This document shows positions 3,101 to 9,625 of a stretch of 41,504 nucleotides of DNA, piece by piece. Each line of letters opens with the position of its first letter. Within the stretch, counting starts at the first letter, position 1. The notes under the pieces were generated by a model, which was given only the letters and a program-made list of their open reading frames with translations, ran no database searches and was not told the DNA's origin. The DNA comes from an uncultured Oscillospiraceae bacterium (GTDB lineage: Bacteria > Bacillota > Clostridia > Oscillospirales > Oscillospiraceae), in the NCBI GenBank assembly GCA_944387775.1, contig CALXGE010000011.1, positions 1 through 41,504 of the forward strand, in the 5' to 3' direction. Position numbers and translations under genes: made by a program.

Positions 3101-3670
3101 TCACAAGGTTGAGGCCTGGCGCCTCAGCAGCATCTCCAGATAGGACCGGCGCGTCAGCCGCTTCCGGTCCACCCCCAAGCGGTCCAGCAGTGTCAGCAGC
3201 CGTGCCACGGATGTCTCACGGCACTCCTCTGAGGCAGCAAGGGTCTCCAGCTCCACGAATTTCCCCAGCCCCACCACGTCGTCCATACAGAGCGTCACGT
3301 CGTCCAGACGGTATGTGTACCGGGTCTTATCGACCGTAAAGACCGGCCGGTAACCCAGGGCTTCCAGCAGCTTTTTTGCTGTCTCCCCGTCCGCTACCGC
3401 TGTCTCATACTCCGTTCTGGTGTTGGAAATCTGGTCTAGTTTTGGCCCTTTGTAGGTCAGCAGGCTCTCGCAGGGGCCGTCAGGCAAAACCGTCAGACTG
3501 CGCAGCCGCAGGGCCTCGTCTGTCCGACGAAAATCCCGCTGGTCCCCATTAAAATATATGTCCGTTTCCCGCACCTGCTCGCAGGGTACAAACCCGCAGG
3601 ATTGTGCCCGGTGCAGCACCTCCTCAGAGGACATCCCCTCCAAAGAAGCTTTGAGCTCAATTTCCAGCAT
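3101..3670 (-). CDS. CYTH domain protein
   Basis: A 189-residue protein of the CYTH superfamily (class IV adenylate cyclase, thiamine triphosphatase and inorganic triphosphatase relatives). The signature E-x-E-x-K is EIELK at residues 3-7. Charged strand motifs expected in the tunnel fold follow: ALRLRSL, LLTYKGPK, TRTEYET, DKTRYTY and KFVELETL. These enzymes bind triphosphates with a divalent metal; the actual substrate cannot be told from sequence alone. GGGAGG, inside the end of the TetR gene, stands 8 bases before the ATG at 3670. Only two bases separate the TetR stop from this start, so the two genes form an operon. Longer upstream in-frame starts would overlap the TetR gene. Confidence 0.8.
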   Translation of the reverse strand: MLEIELKASLEGMSSEEVLHRAQSCGFVPCEQVRETDIYFNGDQRDFRRTDEALRLRSLTVLPDGPCESLLTYKGPKLDQISNTRTEYETAVADGETAKKLLEALGYRPVFTVDKTRYTYRLDDVTLCMDDVVGLGKFVELETLAASEECRETSVARLLTLLDRLGVDRKRLTRRSYLEMLLRRQASTL

Positions 3671-3672
3671 CG

Positions 3673-4287
3673 TTACGCCTCCCGTTTTTCTGCCACGCCT
3701 GCCAGCAGCTGATCTATCATATCCTGCACCCGCCGGTGGCACTGCTCCGGCGTATAGTGCTCCAGATTCTCCCATCCAAATTGGGTCAGCAGGTATGCAC
3801 CCAGAAATCCCTCCGTCAAGGCTTCCGGGGACAGGTCCCGGCGCAGACGGCCCTGATCCTGGGCCTCCCGGACCATCTGGCCCAGGATCTCCACCAGTTC
3901 CTGACGAGTCACATGGAGCTCACTGTCAGGAGAGAGGTTGGAGTAGAGGATCCTTCGGGACAGGGTAAGATACCGGATGGAGTCTGTCACCAGGGTTTCC
4001 ATTACGCGCCGCAGCTTTTCCAGACTGTCGGGTTCGTCCCGGAGATCCTCGCTTATCAACTGGCGGACTTCGTCCAAAGCCGCCTCAGCAATTCCCAGAA
4101 GCAGATTTTCCTTGCTGGAGAAGTAGTTGTACAAGGTTGCCTTGGAGACCTCAGCCGCCTCGGCAATATCCTCCATGGTCGTTTCTTCGTACCCTTTAGC
4201 GGTAAAGAGCCGCCGGGACATCTTCAAAATCCGGTTTCGGCACTGAATCTTATTCAGTTCCCGTCTTCCCTGTTTCATACCGTACAC
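3673..4287 (-). CDS. TetR family transcriptional regulator
   Basis: A 204-residue TetR-type repressor. The N-terminal helix-turn-helix shows the usual pattern: ILKMSRRLFTAKGYEETTMED, AAEVSKATLYNYFSSKENLL. The C-terminal ligand-binding half is not diagnostic. It heads a two-gene operon with the CYTH gene and is divergent from the kinase-aminotransferase-RLP-phosphatase operon. The shared intergenic region contains promoters in both directions and a 19-bp palindrome, so control of that operon is plausible but not shown. The ATG at 4275 (MKQGRR) is an alternative start. Confidence 0.88.
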   Translation of the reverse strand: MYGMKQGRRELNKIQCRNRILKMSRRLFTAKGYEETTMEDIAEAAEVSKATLYNYFSSKENLLLGIAEAALDEVRQLISEDLRDEPDSLEKLRRVMETLVTDSIRYLTLSRRILYSNLSPDSELHVTRQELVEILGQMVREAQDQGRLRRDLSPEALTEGFLGAYLLTQFGWENLEHYTPEQCHRRVQDMIDQLLAGVAEKREA

Positions 4288-4337
4288 CCGTTATCCCGGA
4301 CCTTCCAGGAAGGCCCATCTTAGTTTCCATTATTATA

Positions 4338-4366
4338 ACTATAACAGAATCCGATCTTCAGCGCAA
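4338..4366 (-). promoter_or_regulatory. Sigma-A type promoter of the TetR-CYTH operon
   Basis: On the minus strand, TTGCGC (4361-4366), a 17-base spacer and TATAGT (4338-4343) lie about 50 bases before the TetR start. Confidence 0.6.
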
Positions 4367-4412
4367 CTGTCGTCCCCATTTCGCCCAAAAAGCGCTGCTA
4401 TTATCTTCTGCT

Positions 4413-4431
4413 TTTGTTTATACTGAACAAA
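4413..4431. promoter_or_regulatory. 19-bp palindrome between divergent operons, possible operator
   Basis: TTTGTT and AACAAA form a perfect inverted repeat around a 7-base spacer. It lies between the TetR promoter and the RLP-operon promoter, about 50 bases upstream of the latter's -35 box. The size suits a TetR dimer. The assignment to the adjacent TetR rests on position only. Confidence 0.4.
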
Positions 4432-4483
4432 TTTACGCCGCGAATTTTTCTGTGTGCACTGCCTGATTTAACAATTCTTGTAC

Positions 4484-4512
4484 TTGATGCTAAATTTAGA
4501 ATATAGTACAAT
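4484..4512 (+). promoter_or_regulatory. Sigma-A type promoter of the RLP operon
   Basis: TTGATG (4484-4489), exactly 17 bases, then TACAAT (4507-4512). It lies about 57 bases before the kinase start in an AT-rich stretch that contrasts with the GC-rich genes. Confidence 0.7.
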
Positions 4513-4568
4513 ATTTTATCATAGATCTCTCAGTTGTGCAATGGATCCGAGGAAAGGAGGAGAACCAG

Positions 4569-6113
4569 TTGTCAATGAAAGTCATTGCCTACGATGTGGG
4601 CACCACTGGACTCAAGACCTGTATGTTCCGCATCTCCGCCGAGGAAAGCGTACAATATCTGGCCGGCGAGGTGGAGCACTATGAGCTCCATGTGCTGGAA
4701 AACGGCGGCGTGGAGCAGGATGCGTCGGACTGGTGGGACGCCATGGCCCGCAGCACCCGGCGCCTGCTGGAGAAGAGCGGTACCGCCAAGGAGGAGATCC
4801 GGGGCATCACCTTCTGCTCCCAGTTTCAGACGGTGGTGATGGTGGATAAAGCGGGCAAGCCCCTGCGCCGCGCCATGAGCTGTATGGACGCCCGTGCGGA
4901 TCTCCAGTTCAAGCGCTGCATGGCCACCGGACTGAAGGTGGAGGGCTTGGACATTGTCAAAGTCCTCAAGTACCTGAAGATCACCGGGGCGGTATCCGGC
5001 AGCGCCAAGGACCCGGCCTGGAAGTATCTGTGGGTACGGGACAATGAACCGGAAATCTTCCGCAATACATACAAATGGCTGGACGCCAAGGAATATCTGA
5101 CCTGCCGGGCCACGGGAAACATGGTGGCCAGCCGCGACGACGCCTGCGCCACCTTCCTCTACGATGTAAAGAACCGCTGCTGGAGCAAGACCCTGTGTAA
5201 GATGCTGGGCATCAACATGGAGCACCTGCCGCCTCTGTGCGACTCCACCGATAAGGTGGGGGACCTGCTGCCCCAGGCGGCAGAGGAGCTGGGACTGGCT
5301 GCGGGTACACCGGTCTTTTCCGGGGCCAGCGATGTGAGCTTGTGCTCTGTAGGAGCCGGCTGCGTGGAGCTGGGAGATGTGCTGGTATACTCGGGTACCT
5401 CAGGCTGGGTAGCTACCACAGTGGGAAAACTCCACCTGGATCTGGGGAACCTGATCGGCGCCCTGGTGGGCGTGGACCCCACCACCTACAACTACGTGGC
5501 GGAGGTGGAGACCTCCGGCAAGTGTATGGAGTGGGTCAAGGACCGCATTGACCAGATGGGCATGGACTACGACCAGATGATCGAGTACATCAAGGATACC
5601 CCCGCCGGCAGCAACGGCGTGGTGTTCTCTCCGTGGATGCACGGCAACCGCTGCCCCTTTGACGATGCCAACTCCCGGGGTGTGTTCTTCAATCTGGATA
5701 TCACCACCCGGGGCTCTGATCTCATGAAGGCCGTGATCGAAGGCGTCTGCCTGCACATGCGCTGGCTTCTGGAGTGCACGGAAAACACCTTCCCCACCAA
5801 TCCTGTGGTCCGCTTCACCGGCGGCAGCGCCATTGCGCCCTATATCTGCCAGGTCATGGCCGATGTGCTGGGACGGGATGTGGAGACTGTGGAAAATCCC
5901 CGGCAGGTAGGAGCCATGGGTGCAGCGGCCCTGCTGGCTGTCAGCTTTGGCCTTCTGCCGGACATCAAGGATATCAAGAAGATCATAAAGGTCCAGGCGA
6001 TCTACCATCCCCGGCGGGAAAATACCGCTGTCTATGACCGAATTCTGCCGGTATTCAAGGACCTGTACCACAACAATAAAAAGTCTTTTGCGGCCCTCAA
6101 CGAAGGAAAATAA
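4569..6113 (+). CDS. FGGY family carbohydrate kinase
   Basis: About 514 residues, the normal length for FGGY kinases, which use ATP to phosphorylate ketoses, polyols or similar compounds. The N-terminal phosphate-binding segment is IAYDVGTTGLKTC. The second domain has YSGTSGWVATT and the conserved FTGGSAIAPYICQVMADVLG, followed by NPRQVGAMGAAALLA. It looks xylulokinase-like, but the substrate cannot be assigned. AAAGGAGG lies 8 bases before a TTG at 4569 and 14 before the ATG at 4575; the spacing favours TTG, giving a protein starting MSMKVIAYD. It is the first gene of an operon with a class III aminotransferase, an RLP and an MtnX-like phosphatase, so its product probably feeds the RLP with a phosphorylated ketose-like compound. 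Confidence 0.88.
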   Translation: MSMKVIAYDVGTTGLKTCMFRISAEESVQYLAGEVEHYELHVLENGGVEQDASDWWDAMARSTRRLLEKSGTAKEEIRGITFCSQFQTVVMVDKAGKPLRRAMSCMDARADLQFKRCMATGLKVEGLDIVKVLKYLKITGAVSGSAKDPAWKYLWVRDNEPEIFRNTYKWLDAKEYLTCRATGNMVASRDDACATFLYDVKNRCWSKTLCKMLGINMEHLPPLCDSTDKVGDLLPQAAEELGLAAGTPVFSGASDVSLCSVGAGCVELGDVLVYSGTSGWVATTVGKLHLDLGNLIGALVGVDPTTYNYVAEVETSGKCMEWVKDRIDQMGMDYDQMIEYIKDTPAGSNGVVFSPWMHGNRCPFDDANSRGVFFNLDITTRGSDLMKAVIEGVCLHMRWLLECTENTFPTNPVVRFTGGSAIAPYICQVMADVLGRDVETVENPRQVGAMGAAALLAVSFGLLPDIKDIKKIIKVQAIYHPRRENTAVYDRILPVFKDLYHNNKKSFAALNEGK

Positions 6114-6157
6114 TCAGTATGAAACGATACCAGTAAAAAGCAACAGGAGGAATCGGT

Positions 6158-7603
6158 ATGATGAAAGAACATTACGGCGTGTCCCATTGGCCGGATGAAA
6201 AAGAGATCTTTGCCAAAATGGACCGTCTGGTCAACCAGCCCCTTCACCACATCAAGCCGGAGGCGATGAAGCGCTATCTCAACTACTTTGATACCAGGTG
6301 CAGAAGCTCCAAGGCCATGATCGAAGAGGCGAAAAAGGTCATTCCCGGCGGCGTACAGCACAATCTGGCCTTTAACTATCCCTTTCCCCTGGTCATTACC
6401 AAGGCGGAGGGGGCGTACCTCTACGACATCGACGGCAACCGGTATGTGGACTATCTCCAGGCTGGCGGTCCCACCCTGCTCGGCAGCAACTATGGCCCGG
6501 TCAACGAGAAGGTGTGGGAGGTGGTCCGGGAATCCGGTCCGGTGACCGGCCTGTTCCATCCCTTTGAGAAGAAGCTGGCGGAGAAGATTCGGGAGTGCAT
6601 GCCCTGGGTGGAAATGTATCGCTGCCTTGCCAGCGGCACCGAGGCTGACATGGTGGCCATCCGCATTGCTCGCACCTACACGGGCAAGCAGCGGATCGTG
6701 AAGGTGGGCGGCGCCTACCACGGCTGGAGCGATCAGCTGGTCTACTCCCTCCACATCCCCTACACCAAGACCTTCGAGGCCCACGGCATCCCCAAGGAGG
6801 CCAGCGCCAATACCTGTGAGTTCTTTCCCGGCGACGTGGACGGCCTGAGAAAGGTGCTGGAGGAGAACGAGAAGTACGGCGGCACCGCGGCGGTGCTCAT
6901 CGAGCCCTTCGGCCCTGAGAGCGGTACCCGCCCGGTGGCCATGGACTTTGCGGCCAAGGCCCGGGAGCTGTGCGACGAGTTTGGCGCCCTGCTGATCTTC
7001 GACGAGGTGGTCACTGCCTTCCGGGTAGGCCCCGGCGGCGCCCAGGGATTCTTCAATGTGCGGCCTGACCTCACTGTATTCGGCAAGATTGTGGCCGGCG
7101 GCTACCCCATGGCCGGCGGCGTAGGCGGCCGGGAGGAGATCATGTCCTGCGTGGCGGCAGGCGTCAAGGCCGGCAAGAAAAAGGCCTATGTGGGCGGTAC
7201 TCTGACGGCCAACCCCCTCAGCTGTGCGGCGGGCTACTTTGCCATCGATGAGATCATCCGCCAGGATGCAGCCAAGAAGGCCGGTGAAAACGGCGACAAG
7301 CTCTGCGCAGGCATCCAGAAGCTGATCGACAAGTATGATCTGCCCTTCGTCACCTGGAACACCGGCTCCATTGTCCACTTCGAGGTCTCCGACGTCATGT
7401 ACCTGAGCGTCACAGACCCGGATATCTTCACCAAGATCCCTGAGCGGCAGAAATATATTGAGGAGTTCGGCGCGGCCCTGACTGCCAACGGCGTGATCAC
7501 CCTGGCCGGCTCCCGTATCTATACCAGCATGGCGGATAACGACCAGACCATCGCCCAGACTCTGAACGCATTTGAGGACGTATTTTCCAACGTGGAGCGC
7601 TGA
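6158..7603 (+). CDS. Class III PLP-dependent aminotransferase, glutamate-1-semialdehyde aminomutase-like
   Basis: A 481-residue fold-type I class III aminotransferase. The N-terminal half has VIPGGVQHNLAFNYPFPLV and YLYDIDGNRYVDYLQAGGPT, as in glutamate-1-semialdehyde 2,1-aminomutase relatives. The PLP-binding Asp is D282 in LIFDEVVTAFRVGPGGAQG, and the Schiff-base Lys is K310 in FGKIVAGGYPMAGGVGG. YVGGTLTANPLSCAAG closes the site. A biosynthetic hemL role is unlikely, because no tetrapyrrole genes are near and the gene sits between a sugar kinase and an RLP. It more likely transfers an amino group to or from an aldehyde or keto intermediate of the local pathway. AGGAGG is 7 bases before the ATG; the gap to the kinase gene is 44 bases and to the RLP gene 14 bases. 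Confidence 0.88.
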   Translation: MMKEHYGVSHWPDEKEIFAKMDRLVNQPLHHIKPEAMKRYLNYFDTRCRSSKAMIEEAKKVIPGGVQHNLAFNYPFPLVITKAEGAYLYDIDGNRYVDYLQAGGPTLLGSNYGPVNEKVWEVVRESGPVTGLFHPFEKKLAEKIRECMPWVEMYRCLASGTEADMVAIRIARTYTGKQRIVKVGGAYHGWSDQLVYSLHIPYTKTFEAHGIPKEASANTCEFFPGDVDGLRKVLEENEKYGGTAAVLIEPFGPESGTRPVAMDFAAKARELCDEFGALLIFDEVVTAFRVGPGGAQGFFNVRPDLTVFGKIVAGGYPMAGGVGGREEIMSCVAAGVKAGKKKAYVGGTLTANPLSCAAGYFAIDEIIRQDAAKKAGENGDKLCAGIQKLIDKYDLPFVTWNTGSIVHFEVSDVMYLSVTDPDIFTKIPERQKYIEEFGAALTANGVITLAGSRIYTSMADNDQTIAQTLNAFEDVFSNVER

Positions 7604-7617
7604 AAGGAGAACACGAT

Positions 7618-8934
7618 ATGATCCGTAAACTGGATGTGGAAAACCTGACTTACGCTTTTCCTGAGGTGGCCTTCGACAACGACTATGTGATTGCCACCTA
7701 TCAGGCCAAGGTACAGACCAAGAACATTGAGAAGCTGGCCATGGCCATTGCCGACGAGCAGACCACCGGCACCTGGATCAAGGTGGGGGCCGACTCTCTG
7801 GAGAAGACCCGGCGCTTCGGCTCCAAGCTGGTGGCCCTCTACGAGGTGCCTGATGTGGGCTGCGACTACCAGTCCGACGAGCCGCCTATGTACATCATCC
7901 AGGTGGCCTACCCCATGTCCAACTTCTCCACTAGTATGTCCGCCATGCTGACCATCCTCTTTGGCAATATCTCTGCCTCCGGCATGATCCGGCTGATCGA
8001 CGTTGCCTTCCCCAAGAAGTTCATCGCCCAGTTCCAGGGCCCCAAGTTCGGCGTAGAGGGCCTGCGGAAGGTGCTGGAGGTGCCTGACCGGCCCCTCCTC
8101 AACGCCATGATCAAGCCCAACATCGGCTGGACGCCGGATGAGGGCGCGGACCTGTTCTATCACGCCTGCAAGGGCGGCGTGGACATCATCAAGGACGATG
8201 AGCTGATGCTGGCTGACGGCCCCTTCTGTCCTCTGAAGGACCGGGTCACCAAGTTCATGGAGAAGGAAAAGCAGGTCTTTGCCGAGACCGGCGAGCACAG
8301 CCTCTACGCCGTCAATATCTCCGATAGCACCGAGAAGGTCCGCGACAACGCCTACCGGGCGCTGGAGTACGGCACCAACTGCCTCATGGTCAACACCTAC
8401 ACCACCGGGTTTGACACGCTGAAGATGCTGGCGGAGGACCCCAACATCAACGTGCCCATCCTGGCCCATGTGAACTTTGCGGGAACCATGGCCGCCTCCA
8501 CCTACACCGGCATCGCCGCGCCGCTCCTCATCGGCAAGATCACCCGTCTGGCCGGCGGCGACTTCCAGATCAACGGTCACCCCTACGGCAAATTCCCGGT
8601 GCCCTATAAGATGTTCTACCGCAGCTTCAAGTTCTTCACCCAGCCCTGGTGGAACATCAAGCCCATGATGTACGCCTGCTCCGGCGGCACCACCCAGCTG
8701 GCGGTGGAGAAGATCATCCGGGATGTGGGTACCGATGTGATCCTGGCCGCAGGCGGCGGCGTCCACGGCCACCCCGACGGCAGCGAGGCCGGCGCCAAGA
8801 GCATGCGTCAGGCTATTGATGCGGCCATTGCGGGGATTCCTGTAACCGAGTACGCCAAGGACCACCCGGAGCTGGCCCGGATGCTGGGCTATCTGAATCC
8901 GGACCTCCGGAAGAATTTCGACCTGATGAACTAA
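7618..8934 (+). CDS. RubisCO-like protein (form IV large-subunit homologue)
   Basis: A 438-residue RLP. The catalytic-base Lys is kept as K166 in IKPNIG, and the carbamylated Lys and metal ligands as K192, D194 and E195 in GGVDIIKDDE. H284 in LAHVNFAGT matches His294 of plant RubisCO. Phosphate-binding loops are CSGGTTQ (354-360) and AAGGGVHGHPDG (377-388). The second Lys of K-P-K is Asn168, the Arg after H284 is Val, and the loop-6 region (LAGGDFQINGHPYGK) lacks the Gly-Lys CO2-addition loop. Carboxylation is therefore not expected. It should instead enolise, isomerise or decarboxylate a phosphorylated keto compound, as MtnW does in methionine salvage. GAAAGGAG is 11 bases before the ATG. 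Neighbours (kinase, aminotransferase, MtnX-like phosphatase) fit a dedicated pathway. Confidence 0.93.
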   Translation: MIRKLDVENLTYAFPEVAFDNDYVIATYQAKVQTKNIEKLAMAIADEQTTGTWIKVGADSLEKTRRFGSKLVALYEVPDVGCDYQSDEPPMYIIQVAYPMSNFSTSMSAMLTILFGNISASGMIRLIDVAFPKKFIAQFQGPKFGVEGLRKVLEVPDRPLLNAMIKPNIGWTPDEGADLFYHACKGGVDIIKDDELMLADGPFCPLKDRVTKFMEKEKQVFAETGEHSLYAVNISDSTEKVRDNAYRALEYGTNCLMVNTYTTGFDTLKMLAEDPNINVPILAHVNFAGTMAASTYTGIAAPLLIGKITRLAGGDFQINGHPYGKFPVPYKMFYRSFKFFTQPWWNIKPMMYACSGGTTQLAVEKIIRDVGTDVILAAGGGVHGHPDGSEAGAKSMRQAIDAAIAGIPVTEYAKDHPELARMLGYLNPDLRKNFDLMN

Positions 8935-8944
8935 GTGTTTGCTG

Positions 8945-8972
8945 CCGCGGCGGAGGATACCCTCCGCCGCGG
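8945..8972 (+). other. 12-bp intercistronic hairpin between RLP and phosphatase genes
   Basis: CCGCGGCGGAGG (8945-8956) pairs perfectly with CCTCCGCCGCGG (8961-8972) around a 4-base loop. No T run follows, so it is not a typical terminator. It may stabilise the upstream message or lower expression of the TTG-started phosphatase. Confidence 0.7.
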
Positions 8973-8998
8973 TACCTTACCCGGAAAGGAGAATCCTA

Positions 8999-9625
8999 TT
9001 GTACGACACCATTGTATTCGCCGACTTTGACGGCACCATTACCCTGGAGGATACGCTGGTGGGGGCGATCCGCCTGTTTGTAGACCCGGCGGAATTTCAC
9101 CTGTACAGCCAGAAATTGGCTCAGGGCGAGATGACTTTGAGCCAGGTGGTGCGCCGCGCCTTTGACGGGGCACCCTCGGAGCTGCTGGCCCGGATGCTGG
9201 AGTACGTGAAAACCGTTCCCCTGCGCCCCGGCTTTTCCGACTTTCTCGACGAGATGGAGCGCCAGAGTATTCCGGTCGTGGTGATCTCCGGCGGGGTGCG
9301 GCAGTTTGTGGAGCAGACTCTGGCCCCCTTCCGCCACCGGCTGCTGGGCGTCCACGCGGTAGACCTGGATGTGAGCCGTCCCCAGATGCACCTGGTCTCC
9401 GCCTATGACAACGGCGACGAGCTGCTGAAAAAGACTGACGTCATGGCGCTCTACGACTACCGCCGCTCGGTGGGGATCGGTGACAGCTTCACCGACCGAA
9501 ACATGAGCCAGGCGGTGGACACCATCTTTGCCCGGGATATCCTGGCGCAATACCTTCAGAAATGCGGCCTTCCCTACCTGCCCTACGAGGATTTTTACGA
9601 CGTGATCCGTCAGTTTCCCGTATAA
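8999..9625 (+). CDS. HAD family phosphatase, MtnX-like
   Basis: About 208 residues of a HAD hydrolase close to MtnX (2-hydroxy-3-keto-5-methylthiopentenyl-1-phosphate phosphatase) and phosphoserine phosphatases. Motif I is FADFDGTIT, with the nucleophile and acid Asp at residues 9 and 11. Motif II Ser is in VVISGGVRQF. Motif III/IV is GIGDSFTDRNMS, preceded by KKTD. No ATG fits: GGAAAGGAG lies 7 bases before a TTG at 8999, giving MYDTIVFADFDGT. It is the last gene of the RLP operon. In methionine salvage an RLP enolase is followed by MtnX, and this gene pair repeats that logic. No dioxygenase (MtnD) or class I aminotransferase (MtnE) is present here. Confidence 0.85.
   Translation: MYDTIVFADFDGTITLEDTLVGAIRLFVDPAEFHLYSQKLAQGEMTLSQVVRRAFDGAPSELLARMLEYVKTVPLRPGFSDFLDEMERQSIPVVVISGGVRQFVEQTLAPFRHRLLGVHAVDLDVSRPQMHLVSAYDNGDELLKKTDVMALYDYRRSVGIGDSFTDRNMSQAVDTIFARDILAQYLQKCGLPYLPYEDFYDVIRQFPV

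Follow-up and report, generated by a model that had tools for sequence, protein, structure and literature searches.

Sphingoid bases are 2-amino-1,3-diols, and phytosphingosine is a 2-amino-1,3,4-triol. A report on Pseudomonas aeruginosa, in the portion available to us, describes bacterial sphingosine metabolism as open and its direct product in that organism as unknown (PMC11893366). For hydrolyzed fumonisin, an analogue of the sphingoid bases, the available portions of two further reports describe a class III aminotransferase, FumI, which deaminates the C2 amine with pyruvate (PMC2933618, PMC9858248). Here we analyze a window of 41,504 nucleotides (contig CALXGE010000011.1, positions 1 to 41,504) from the 2.18-Mb, 84% complete draft genome of an uncultured Oscillospiraceae bacterium, which carries an operon coding for an FGGY-family kinase, a class III aminotransferase (AT3), a RuBisCO-like protein (RLP), and an MtnX-like HAD phosphatase. 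Taking the evidence of its relatives together, we lean toward the view that this operon functions in the anaerobic catabolism of sphingoid long-chain bases. Among the matches listed in a search of open-licence papers, preprints excluded, we found none that describes this set of four genes and none that ties FGGY kinases or RLPs to sphingolipids.

The four genes lie on the forward strand at positions 4536 to 9625, separated by short gaps, and constitute a single operon, as the initial annotation had stated; Pfam and family-model matches likewise bear out its assignment of the four families. The kinase (open reading frame [ORF] 4536 to 6113, probable ATG start at 4575) matches FGGY_N (2e-43) and FGGY_C (9e-22); AT3 (6158 to 7603) matches Aminotran_3 (4e-48) and belongs to the subgroup resembling glutamate-1-semialdehyde aminomutase (GSAM); the RLP (7618 to 8934) matches RuBisCO_large (2e-52); and the phosphatase (ORF 8939 to 9625, with a probable TTG start at 8999 preceded by a Shine-Dalgarno-like stretch) matches HAD (7e-14) and is closest to MtnX (2fea, 5e-18). 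All four enzymes fall short of the NCBIfam equivalog cutoffs. A xylulokinase identity was considered for the FGGY protein and rejected, its score being 279 bits against a cutoff of 380, with XylB falling outside its clade in the kinase tree.

A scan of GTDB genomes for relatives of the RLP returned 84 matches, of which 80 were kept; the closest named matches in another collection are from Oscillospiraceae. We defined a core set of 18 loci with RLPs 67 to 93% identical to that of the window, hosted by Oscillospiraceae, Emergencia, Anaerovorax, Sinanaerobacter, Mobilibacterium, Christensenellaceae, one spirochaete, and others, and counted as a partner any BLAST match within 8 kb of the RLP, leaving out loci L001 to L007, the partial RLPs L025, L026, L028, and L034, and L117. 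AT3 and the FGGY kinase are each present in 16 of the 18 core loci and the HAD phosphatase in 15. At two of the exceptions (L022 and L023) the contigs end beside the RLP; at a third (L019) AT3 is partial and no FGGY or HAD gene was found. These partner counts indicate that the four-gene set is real and that its order is conserved far beyond chance in relatives. A TetR homologue is found at 15 of the core loci, a CYTH homologue at 11, and an MFS transporter at 7, with the MFS protein of L013 resembling FLVCR1/2 (4.5e-29), named in the PDB as choline/ethanolamine or heme transporters. The CYTH homologues stand beside the TetR or the HAD gene. In one close relative (G022, loci L003 and L007), the RLP is split over two overlapping frames, which might reflect a pseudogene or an assembly error.

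In maximum-likelihood trees, 19 core RLPs form a clade of their own (support 100/100), apart from OiaX and the MtnW row, within a superclade (100/99) that also holds MtnW and several RLPs without an assigned function. The core RLP is hence neither MtnW nor OiaX, and placement in the tree agrees with the earlier suggestion that it belongs to no clade of known function; the sole MtnW row, a long branch, groups with L035, L036, and L064. Neither outcome that the initial annotation had named as refuting its reading, genes scattered in relatives or an RLP within MtnW, was observed. Model scores concur: the window protein reaches 300.8 bits against the MtnW model TIGR03332 (cutoff 513.6), 345.1 against NF007095 (cutoff 409), and 211.6 against the OiaX model (cutoff 700). 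Its AlphaFold model has a RuBisCO fold (pLDDT 85.5), for which Foldseek gives MtnW structures as the best matches (3.8e-41), with Form III RuBisCO at 2.9e-38. Numbered by alignment to a Form I RuBisCO, E60, T65, W66, N123, K175, K201, D203, E204, H294, K334, S379, G381, and G403 are kept in all 19 core RLPs, among them E60, N123, and K334, which the MtnW row lacks; in their turn K177 is replaced by N, R295 by V, I, or S, H298 by A or V, and H327 by I. In RuBisCO, K201, D203, and E204 hold the metal and carbamate, E60, K334, and N123 serve the carboxylation half-reaction, and R295 and H327 bind the second phosphate. Since the catalytic residues other than K177 are kept and R295 and H327 are lost, the active site looks like that of a RuBisCO whose substrate would carry a phosphate at C1 and no second phosphate. 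More distant RLPs occur in other surroundings. One from locus L029 (3374 to 10262; 46% identical) lies with a PTS-like transporter, transketolase halves, a zinc dehydrogenase, and a HAD protein, names that derive from reading the proteins except for the HAD (Pfam), and looks like part of a polyol pathway. Those of L035, L036, and L064, all from Clostridia, accompany FGGY kinases, some of them also SDR and sugar-symporter-like genes, which reads as a second RLP sugar pathway.

The first indication of a possible substrate comes from a sister cluster. The window genome has a second cluster with an AT3 (54% identical), a large class II aldolase, a TetR gene, and an FGGY kinase, but without an RLP. 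Searches for AT3, chosen without regard to the aldolase, recovered it in 13 of 391 Clostridia genomes, including that of the window (E 1e-100), 13 of 23 genomes picked for an RLP match (E 1e-60), 24 of 198 Spirochaetota genomes (E 1e-90), 2 of 148 genomes of a Chloroflexota class, 1 of 296 genomes of an actinobacterial class (the sample's own center genome), and 2 plasmid records, and in none of the 399 Burkholderiales genomes searched; three weaker matches (L141 to L143, 39 to 43%) were left outside the reading of neighborhoods. Across 68 AT3/RLP loci (44 without and 24 with an RLP), an aldolase lies near AT3 at 38 of the 44 loci without an RLP versus 2 of the 24 with one. L117, with a GatY-type aldolase, an FGGY kinase, and AT3, was not counted. 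In the AT3 tree, a single change (94/98, narrowly short of the starred level) splits 19 rows linked to an RLP from 31 linked to an aldolase; five rows bear no label, and L112, labeled aldolase-linked, reaches the contig end before any aldolase. The locus counts and this tree indicate that the same kinase and aminotransferase pair with either an RLP or an aldolase. Six genomes have both a core RLP cluster (type A) and an AT3-aldolase cluster (type B), and G457 has a core RLP cluster plus a second AT3 locus at which no aldolase was seen.

The neighbors and fusions of the sister clusters are instructive. In Emergencia (L146, 12674 to 14632), the class II aldolase is fused to an ALDH3 (652 amino acids), and in an actinobacterial metagenome-assembled genome (L144, 6542 to 8842) it is fused to AT3 itself (766 amino acids). 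The aldehyde dehydrogenases (ALDHs) of L107 and L146 are ALDH3-family proteins that match the fatty aldehyde dehydrogenase 4qgk at 1.7e-126 and 1.4e-114, although other class 3 ALDHs equal or outscore 4qgk in the same PDB search. An ALDH3 homologue lies near AT3 at 8 of the 19 type B loci of the first set, and none was found at the 25 spirochaete/Chloroflexota loci or the 24 RLP loci. Upstream of the AT3-aldolase pair of L187 are genes for an acyl-CoA dehydrogenase, a 3-hydroxyacyl-CoA dehydrogenase, and an enoyl-CoA hydratase. A GtrA-type membrane gene is near AT3 at 6 of the 19 type B loci of the first set. Mpo1 is part of phytosphingosine breakdown in yeast; the cluster of L118, from a Burkholderia ambifaria plasmid, carries SDR and ALDH genes and is flanked, on the opposite strand and adjoining an IS5 gene, by an Mpo1-like gene (PF06127, 2.8e-23). 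This cluster and that of Butyrivibrio fibrisolvens (L119) are both on plasmids with transposase genes close by, so the aldolase cluster may be mobile between phyla.

A second line of evidence concerns the kinase. At two spirochaete loci (L198 and L199), a run of genes in one direction reads FGGY kinase, sphingosine-1-phosphate (S1P) lyase, TetR, FGGY kinase, AT3, and RLP. The lyase of L198 is a pyridoxal phosphate (PLP) enzyme homologous to S1P lyase (2.5e-188 to the bacterial 3mad and 7.2e-134 to the human 4q6r), and it shares 82% identity with that of L199. The RLPs of both loci keep the core active-site pattern except for C at 177, M at 295, and V at 327; no MtnX-like HAD gene was found at either. 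A search with the L198 lyase gave 46 places in 34 of 198 Spirochaetota genomes and 1 in 33 other genomes, and all 47 were read. At each of the 23 spirochaete places with the highest scores (about 490 bits or more; L198, L199, L216 to L233, L235, L256, and L257), an FGGY kinase directly adjoins the lyase, versus none of the 23 weaker spirochaete places (432 bits or less) or the clostridial one. The weaker homologues (L243 to L255 and L258 to L267; 36 to 48% identical), several of which adjoin a DUF819-type membrane gene, may be another enzyme. As the lyase needs a sphingoid-base 1-phosphate, the adjoining FGGY protein would naturally be the sphingoid-base kinase, and we put forward these spirochaete proteins as candidates for a bacterial enzyme of this kind. 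In the second of two kinase trees, 17 of the 23 lyase-linked kinases, which were those entered, fall with the window kinase and with those from type A and type B clusters in a single clade (57 rows, 96/82) apart from Escherichia coli XylB, AraB, GlpK, FucK, RhaB, and LsrK and four other rows. The window kinase is nested in a group of 49 rows within it (99/95). The long-branched kinases of L033, L035, and L117 were left out of this tree; in the first, the AT3-linked kinase of L117 fell inside the group.

The aminotransferase is compatible with an amine at C2. The PLP lysine is present in all 55 aligned AT3 rows, and the segments that hold Arg32 (carboxylate) and Glu406 (gate) of GSAM are gapped in all 55 when aligned with E. 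coli HemL, a result that depends on the alignment. The window AT3 scores 300.7 bits against the GSAM model (cutoff 398). Because these segments are gapped, AT3 should not be an amino-acid-aldehyde aminomutase, and a role as a GSAM-like aminomutase was rejected. The same gaps make doubtful the earlier idea that transamination is the last step and is directed at an aldehyde; AT3 more likely acts on a C2 amine ahead of the RLP. FumI (6hbs) is a distant homologue (profile E 3.5e-35, versus 4.6e-95 for GSAM).

The ALDH3 fusions, the S1P lyase in the same gene run as AT3 and the RLP, and the beta-oxidation genes of L187 together suggest a long-chain amino alcohol as the substrate, in place of the 5-deoxy- or 5-methylthio-pentose or dietary sugar that had been suggested for the operon. 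From the gene linkage, family memberships, conserved residues, and trees, we infer the following substrate, order of steps, and products. A sphingoid base would be taken up, perhaps by an FLVCR-like MFS transporter such as that encoded in some relatives. The FGGY kinase would then phosphorylate the C1 hydroxyl and AT3 would remove the C2 amine, in either order. The resulting 1-phospho-2-oxo-3-hydroxyalkane, PO-CH2-CO-CHOH-CHX-R, would be the lipid counterpart of the ribulose bisphosphate (RuBP) head. With a 4-hydroxylated base such as phytosphingosine (X = OH), it would be a lipid ketose 1-phosphate, which the class II aldolase of the sister cluster, as an enzyme of the fuculose-phosphate type, could cleave to dihydroxyacetone phosphate and a fatty aldehyde, which ALDH3 would oxidize. 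Without the 4-hydroxyl (X = H) retro-aldol cleavage is impossible, and hence sphinganine and sphingosine would be left to the RLP, which might abstract the C3 proton to form an enediol, as RuBisCO does with RuBP. One possibility is that the RLP is an isomerase that shifts the carbonyl, after which the MtnX-like HAD removes the phosphate.

Another possibility is carboxylation at C2 followed by cleavage between C2 and C3. The RLP would in this event be a lipid carboxylase, converting a sphinganine- or sphingosine-derived substrate and CO2 to 3-phosphoglycerate plus a fatty acid, which for C18 sphinganine would be palmitate. We rate this carboxylase reading as distinctly unlikely. To our knowledge no Form IV RLP has been shown to carboxylate. 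The retention of E60, N123, and K334 speaks for such a reaction, as do the lack of a nearby ALDH3 at all 24 RLP loci and the failure to find an MtnX-like HAD at any of the six deep RLP loci, some on short contigs; the loss of K177 and the HAD kept at 15 of the 18 core loci speak against it.

Several observations weigh against the assignment of sphingoid bases as the substrate. The connection is a genomic association, made by way of the sister clusters and of a deeper branch of RLPs; the lyase link in particular comes from L198 and L199, which lie outside the core clade (RLP 40 to 42% and AT3 42 to 43% identical), and no fatty-acid gene was recognized in the type A clusters. S1P lyase was not found in the window genome (E 1e-40), which at 84% completeness is not decisive, and at the same threshold it was found in just 1 of 33 clostridial and other AT3/RLP genomes. 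Such near-absence is expected if AT3 with the RLP or aldolase is an alternative route, and equally if the substrate differs. Among the Spirochaetota, with relatedness left uncorrected throughout, an FGGY-adjoining lyase is present in 5 of 24 genomes with AT3 versus 15 of 174 others (p 0.07), and a lyase of at least 53% identity in 4 of 24 versus 15 of 174 (p 0.26). Any lyase homologue at all is found in 15 of 24 versus 19 of 174 (p 7.6e-8), a signal that comes from the weaker homologues (14 of 24 versus 12 of 174, a count that included FGGY-adjoining places, three of about 50% identity in G1350, G1410, and G1435 and one in G1447). The co-occurrence of AT3 and S1P lyase was therefore withdrawn as support, its signal coming from weaker homologues without FGGY; these homologues do tend to co-occur with AT3 in Spirochaetota. 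The apolar replacements at R295 and H327 are common to the whole MtnW superclade and hence by themselves are no proof of a fatty tail. Likewise, MdlD, a benzaldehyde dehydrogenase, is the best NCBIfam model, below cutoff, for five of the ALDHs (L107, L146, L112, L118, and L119), so a hydrophobic aldehyde fits and a fatty one is not proved. The TetR gene, frequent in the clostridial clusters, is matched at just 2 of the 25 spirochaete/Chloroflexota aldolase loci, although the one regulator tested there (L183) is TetR-type by Pfam, and the presence of a CYTH protein in the clusters has no explanation in sphingoid-base breakdown.

A rival reading is a soluble amino-polyol or amino-sugar pathway, in which AT3 would yield a ketose, the FGGY kinase would phosphorylate it, and the RLP or aldolase would process a ketose phosphate with a small tail. 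FGGY kinases and class II aldolases act mostly on sugars, the kinase and aldolase with an Fe-dependent alcohol dehydrogenase (L114) or ALDH form a fucose-like set, and at L115 the neighbors of AT3 and the RLP are an MFS_2 transporter of the sugar type and a sugar-binding regulator. Related RLPs are moreover located in the sugar-like clusters L029, L035, L036, and L064, and the co-occurrence of AT3 with the lyase lacks significance. We nevertheless consider this pathway unlikely: the ALDH3 fusion and neighboring ALDH3 genes, the single gene run with S1P lyase, AT3, and RLP, the kinase-lyase pairs at all 23 best-scoring places, the separation of the kinase clade from six E. coli sugar kinases, and the beta-oxidation neighbors of L187 all tell against it. 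An RLP decarboxylation of the D-apiose type and a route from a beta-amino acid to a 3-oxo acid, considered since both OiaX and the class II enzyme OtnC decarboxylate, were dropped given the ALDH3 fusions and the S1P lyase.

An anaerobic salvage of methionine or 5-deoxyribose, with the kinase followed by an MtnB-like step, the RLP as MtnW, the HAD as MtnX, and a last transamination, would account for the RLP falling within the MtnW superclade, for the likeness of the HAD to MtnX, and for the additional class II aldolase-type gene at L021 and L022. The sub-cutoff scores, which for the HAD are 96.8 bits against 292 (NF007103) and 84.5 against 303.2 for the two MtnX models, and the residues E60, N123, and K334 tell against it. 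So does MtnB: none above cutoff was found in the window genome (84% complete; the search did not extend to MtnK, MtnA, or MtnD), where the sole match, at 62.8 bits against 137.05, is the class II aldolase of the sister cluster, and no aldolase gene is near the RLP in 16 of the 18 core loci. We hence rejected salvage as highly improbable. Human ETNPPL is a class III phospho-lyase, and AT3, which is of that class and shares a gene run with S1P lyase at L198 and L199, might similarly act on the phosphoethanolamine released by the lyase, with the RLP serving another purpose. This too is highly improbable, as 32 of the 33 clostridial and other AT3/RLP genomes yielded no lyase at E 1e-40 and L144 carries a fusion of AT3 with an aldolase.

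Two genes on the reverse strand in the region of the operon, which the initial annotation did not mention, complete the locus. A TetR-family regulator (3673 to 4287; PF00440, 1.4e-18) is divergent from the operon, and next to it is a CYTH/triphosphate-tunnel protein (ORF 3101 to 3775, likely start near 3670) that matches the class IV adenylate cyclase model TIGR00318 with 140.9 bits (cutoff 57.95). The AT-rich intergenic region at 4288 to 4574 is, by consensus matches alone, a probable promoter/operator: it has three overlapping sigma-70-like matches on the forward strand (4468 to 4522) and an imperfect palindrome of 25 nucleotides at 4473 to 4516, and the scanned region contains 8 promoter-like sites versus 2.3 expected. 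Between the RLP and HAD genes, a G+C-rich hairpin read from the sequence (8945 to 8972, forward strand; stem of 12 bp, loop of 4, no T run) is a possible processing or attenuation site. Further upstream, the reverse-strand ORF at 1218 to 2456 has a long Thr/Ser repeat tract toward its C-terminal part and is possibly a surface protein.

If sphingoid-base breakdown is correct, the operon would let gut and environmental anaerobes break down a major lipid of diet and host without oxygen, make an FGGY-family protein a candidate for the sphingoid-base kinase of bacteria, and give this RLP clade a testable substrate. Should the RLP carboxylate, biology would have put the RuBisCO reaction to a second use, in lipid breakdown outside carbon assimilation, with a fatty acid released without oxygen or an aldehyde.

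Several described systems offer parallels. The MtnW-MtnX methionine salvage of Bacillus likewise has an RLP, of the same superclade, followed by an MtnX-like HAD, and the 2-oxo substrate with one phosphate and an apolar tail that we propose would be of the same kind; the window operon differs in its FGGY kinase and class III aminotransferase, its retention of E60, N123, and K334, and its sub-cutoff scores. In the D-apiose pathway the RLP OiaX, a 3-oxo-isoapionate-4-phosphate decarboxylase, also acts directly after a kinase, but that kinase is a four-carbon acid sugar kinase rather than an FGGY protein, and OiaX belongs to a separate RLP clade. With Form I to III RuBisCOs the core RLPs share E60, N123, K175, K201, D203, E204, H294, and K334 and differ in lacking K177, R295, and H327. 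The sister cluster follows the logic of the L-fucose and L-rhamnose pathways, with a kinase, a class II aldolase, and oxidation or reduction of an aldehyde, except that an aminotransferase takes the place of the isomerase and that several clusters have an ALDH3-type dehydrogenase. The sphBCD genes of P. aeruginosa likewise concern bacterial metabolism of sphingosine, sphinganine, and phytosphingosine, but in the part of the report available they are predicted to code for a cytochrome, an oxidoreductase, and a PLP-dependent aldolase (PMC11893366). FumI (6hbs), an aminopentol aminotransferase, is also of class III and, according to the available parts of its descriptions, acts on the C2 amine of a sphingoid analogue independently of oxygen (PMC2933618, PMC9858248); it is distant from AT3, and its role is mycotoxin detoxification. 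The pathway of sphingosine kinase and S1P lyase differs in its lyase, which was not found in the window genome and in place of which we propose removal of the amine by transamination and cleavage of a carbon-carbon bond by the RLP or aldolase; as in the proposed route, a kinase and then a PLP enzyme act on a sphingoid base, and spirochaetes have the lyase next to FGGY kinases from the clade of the window kinase.

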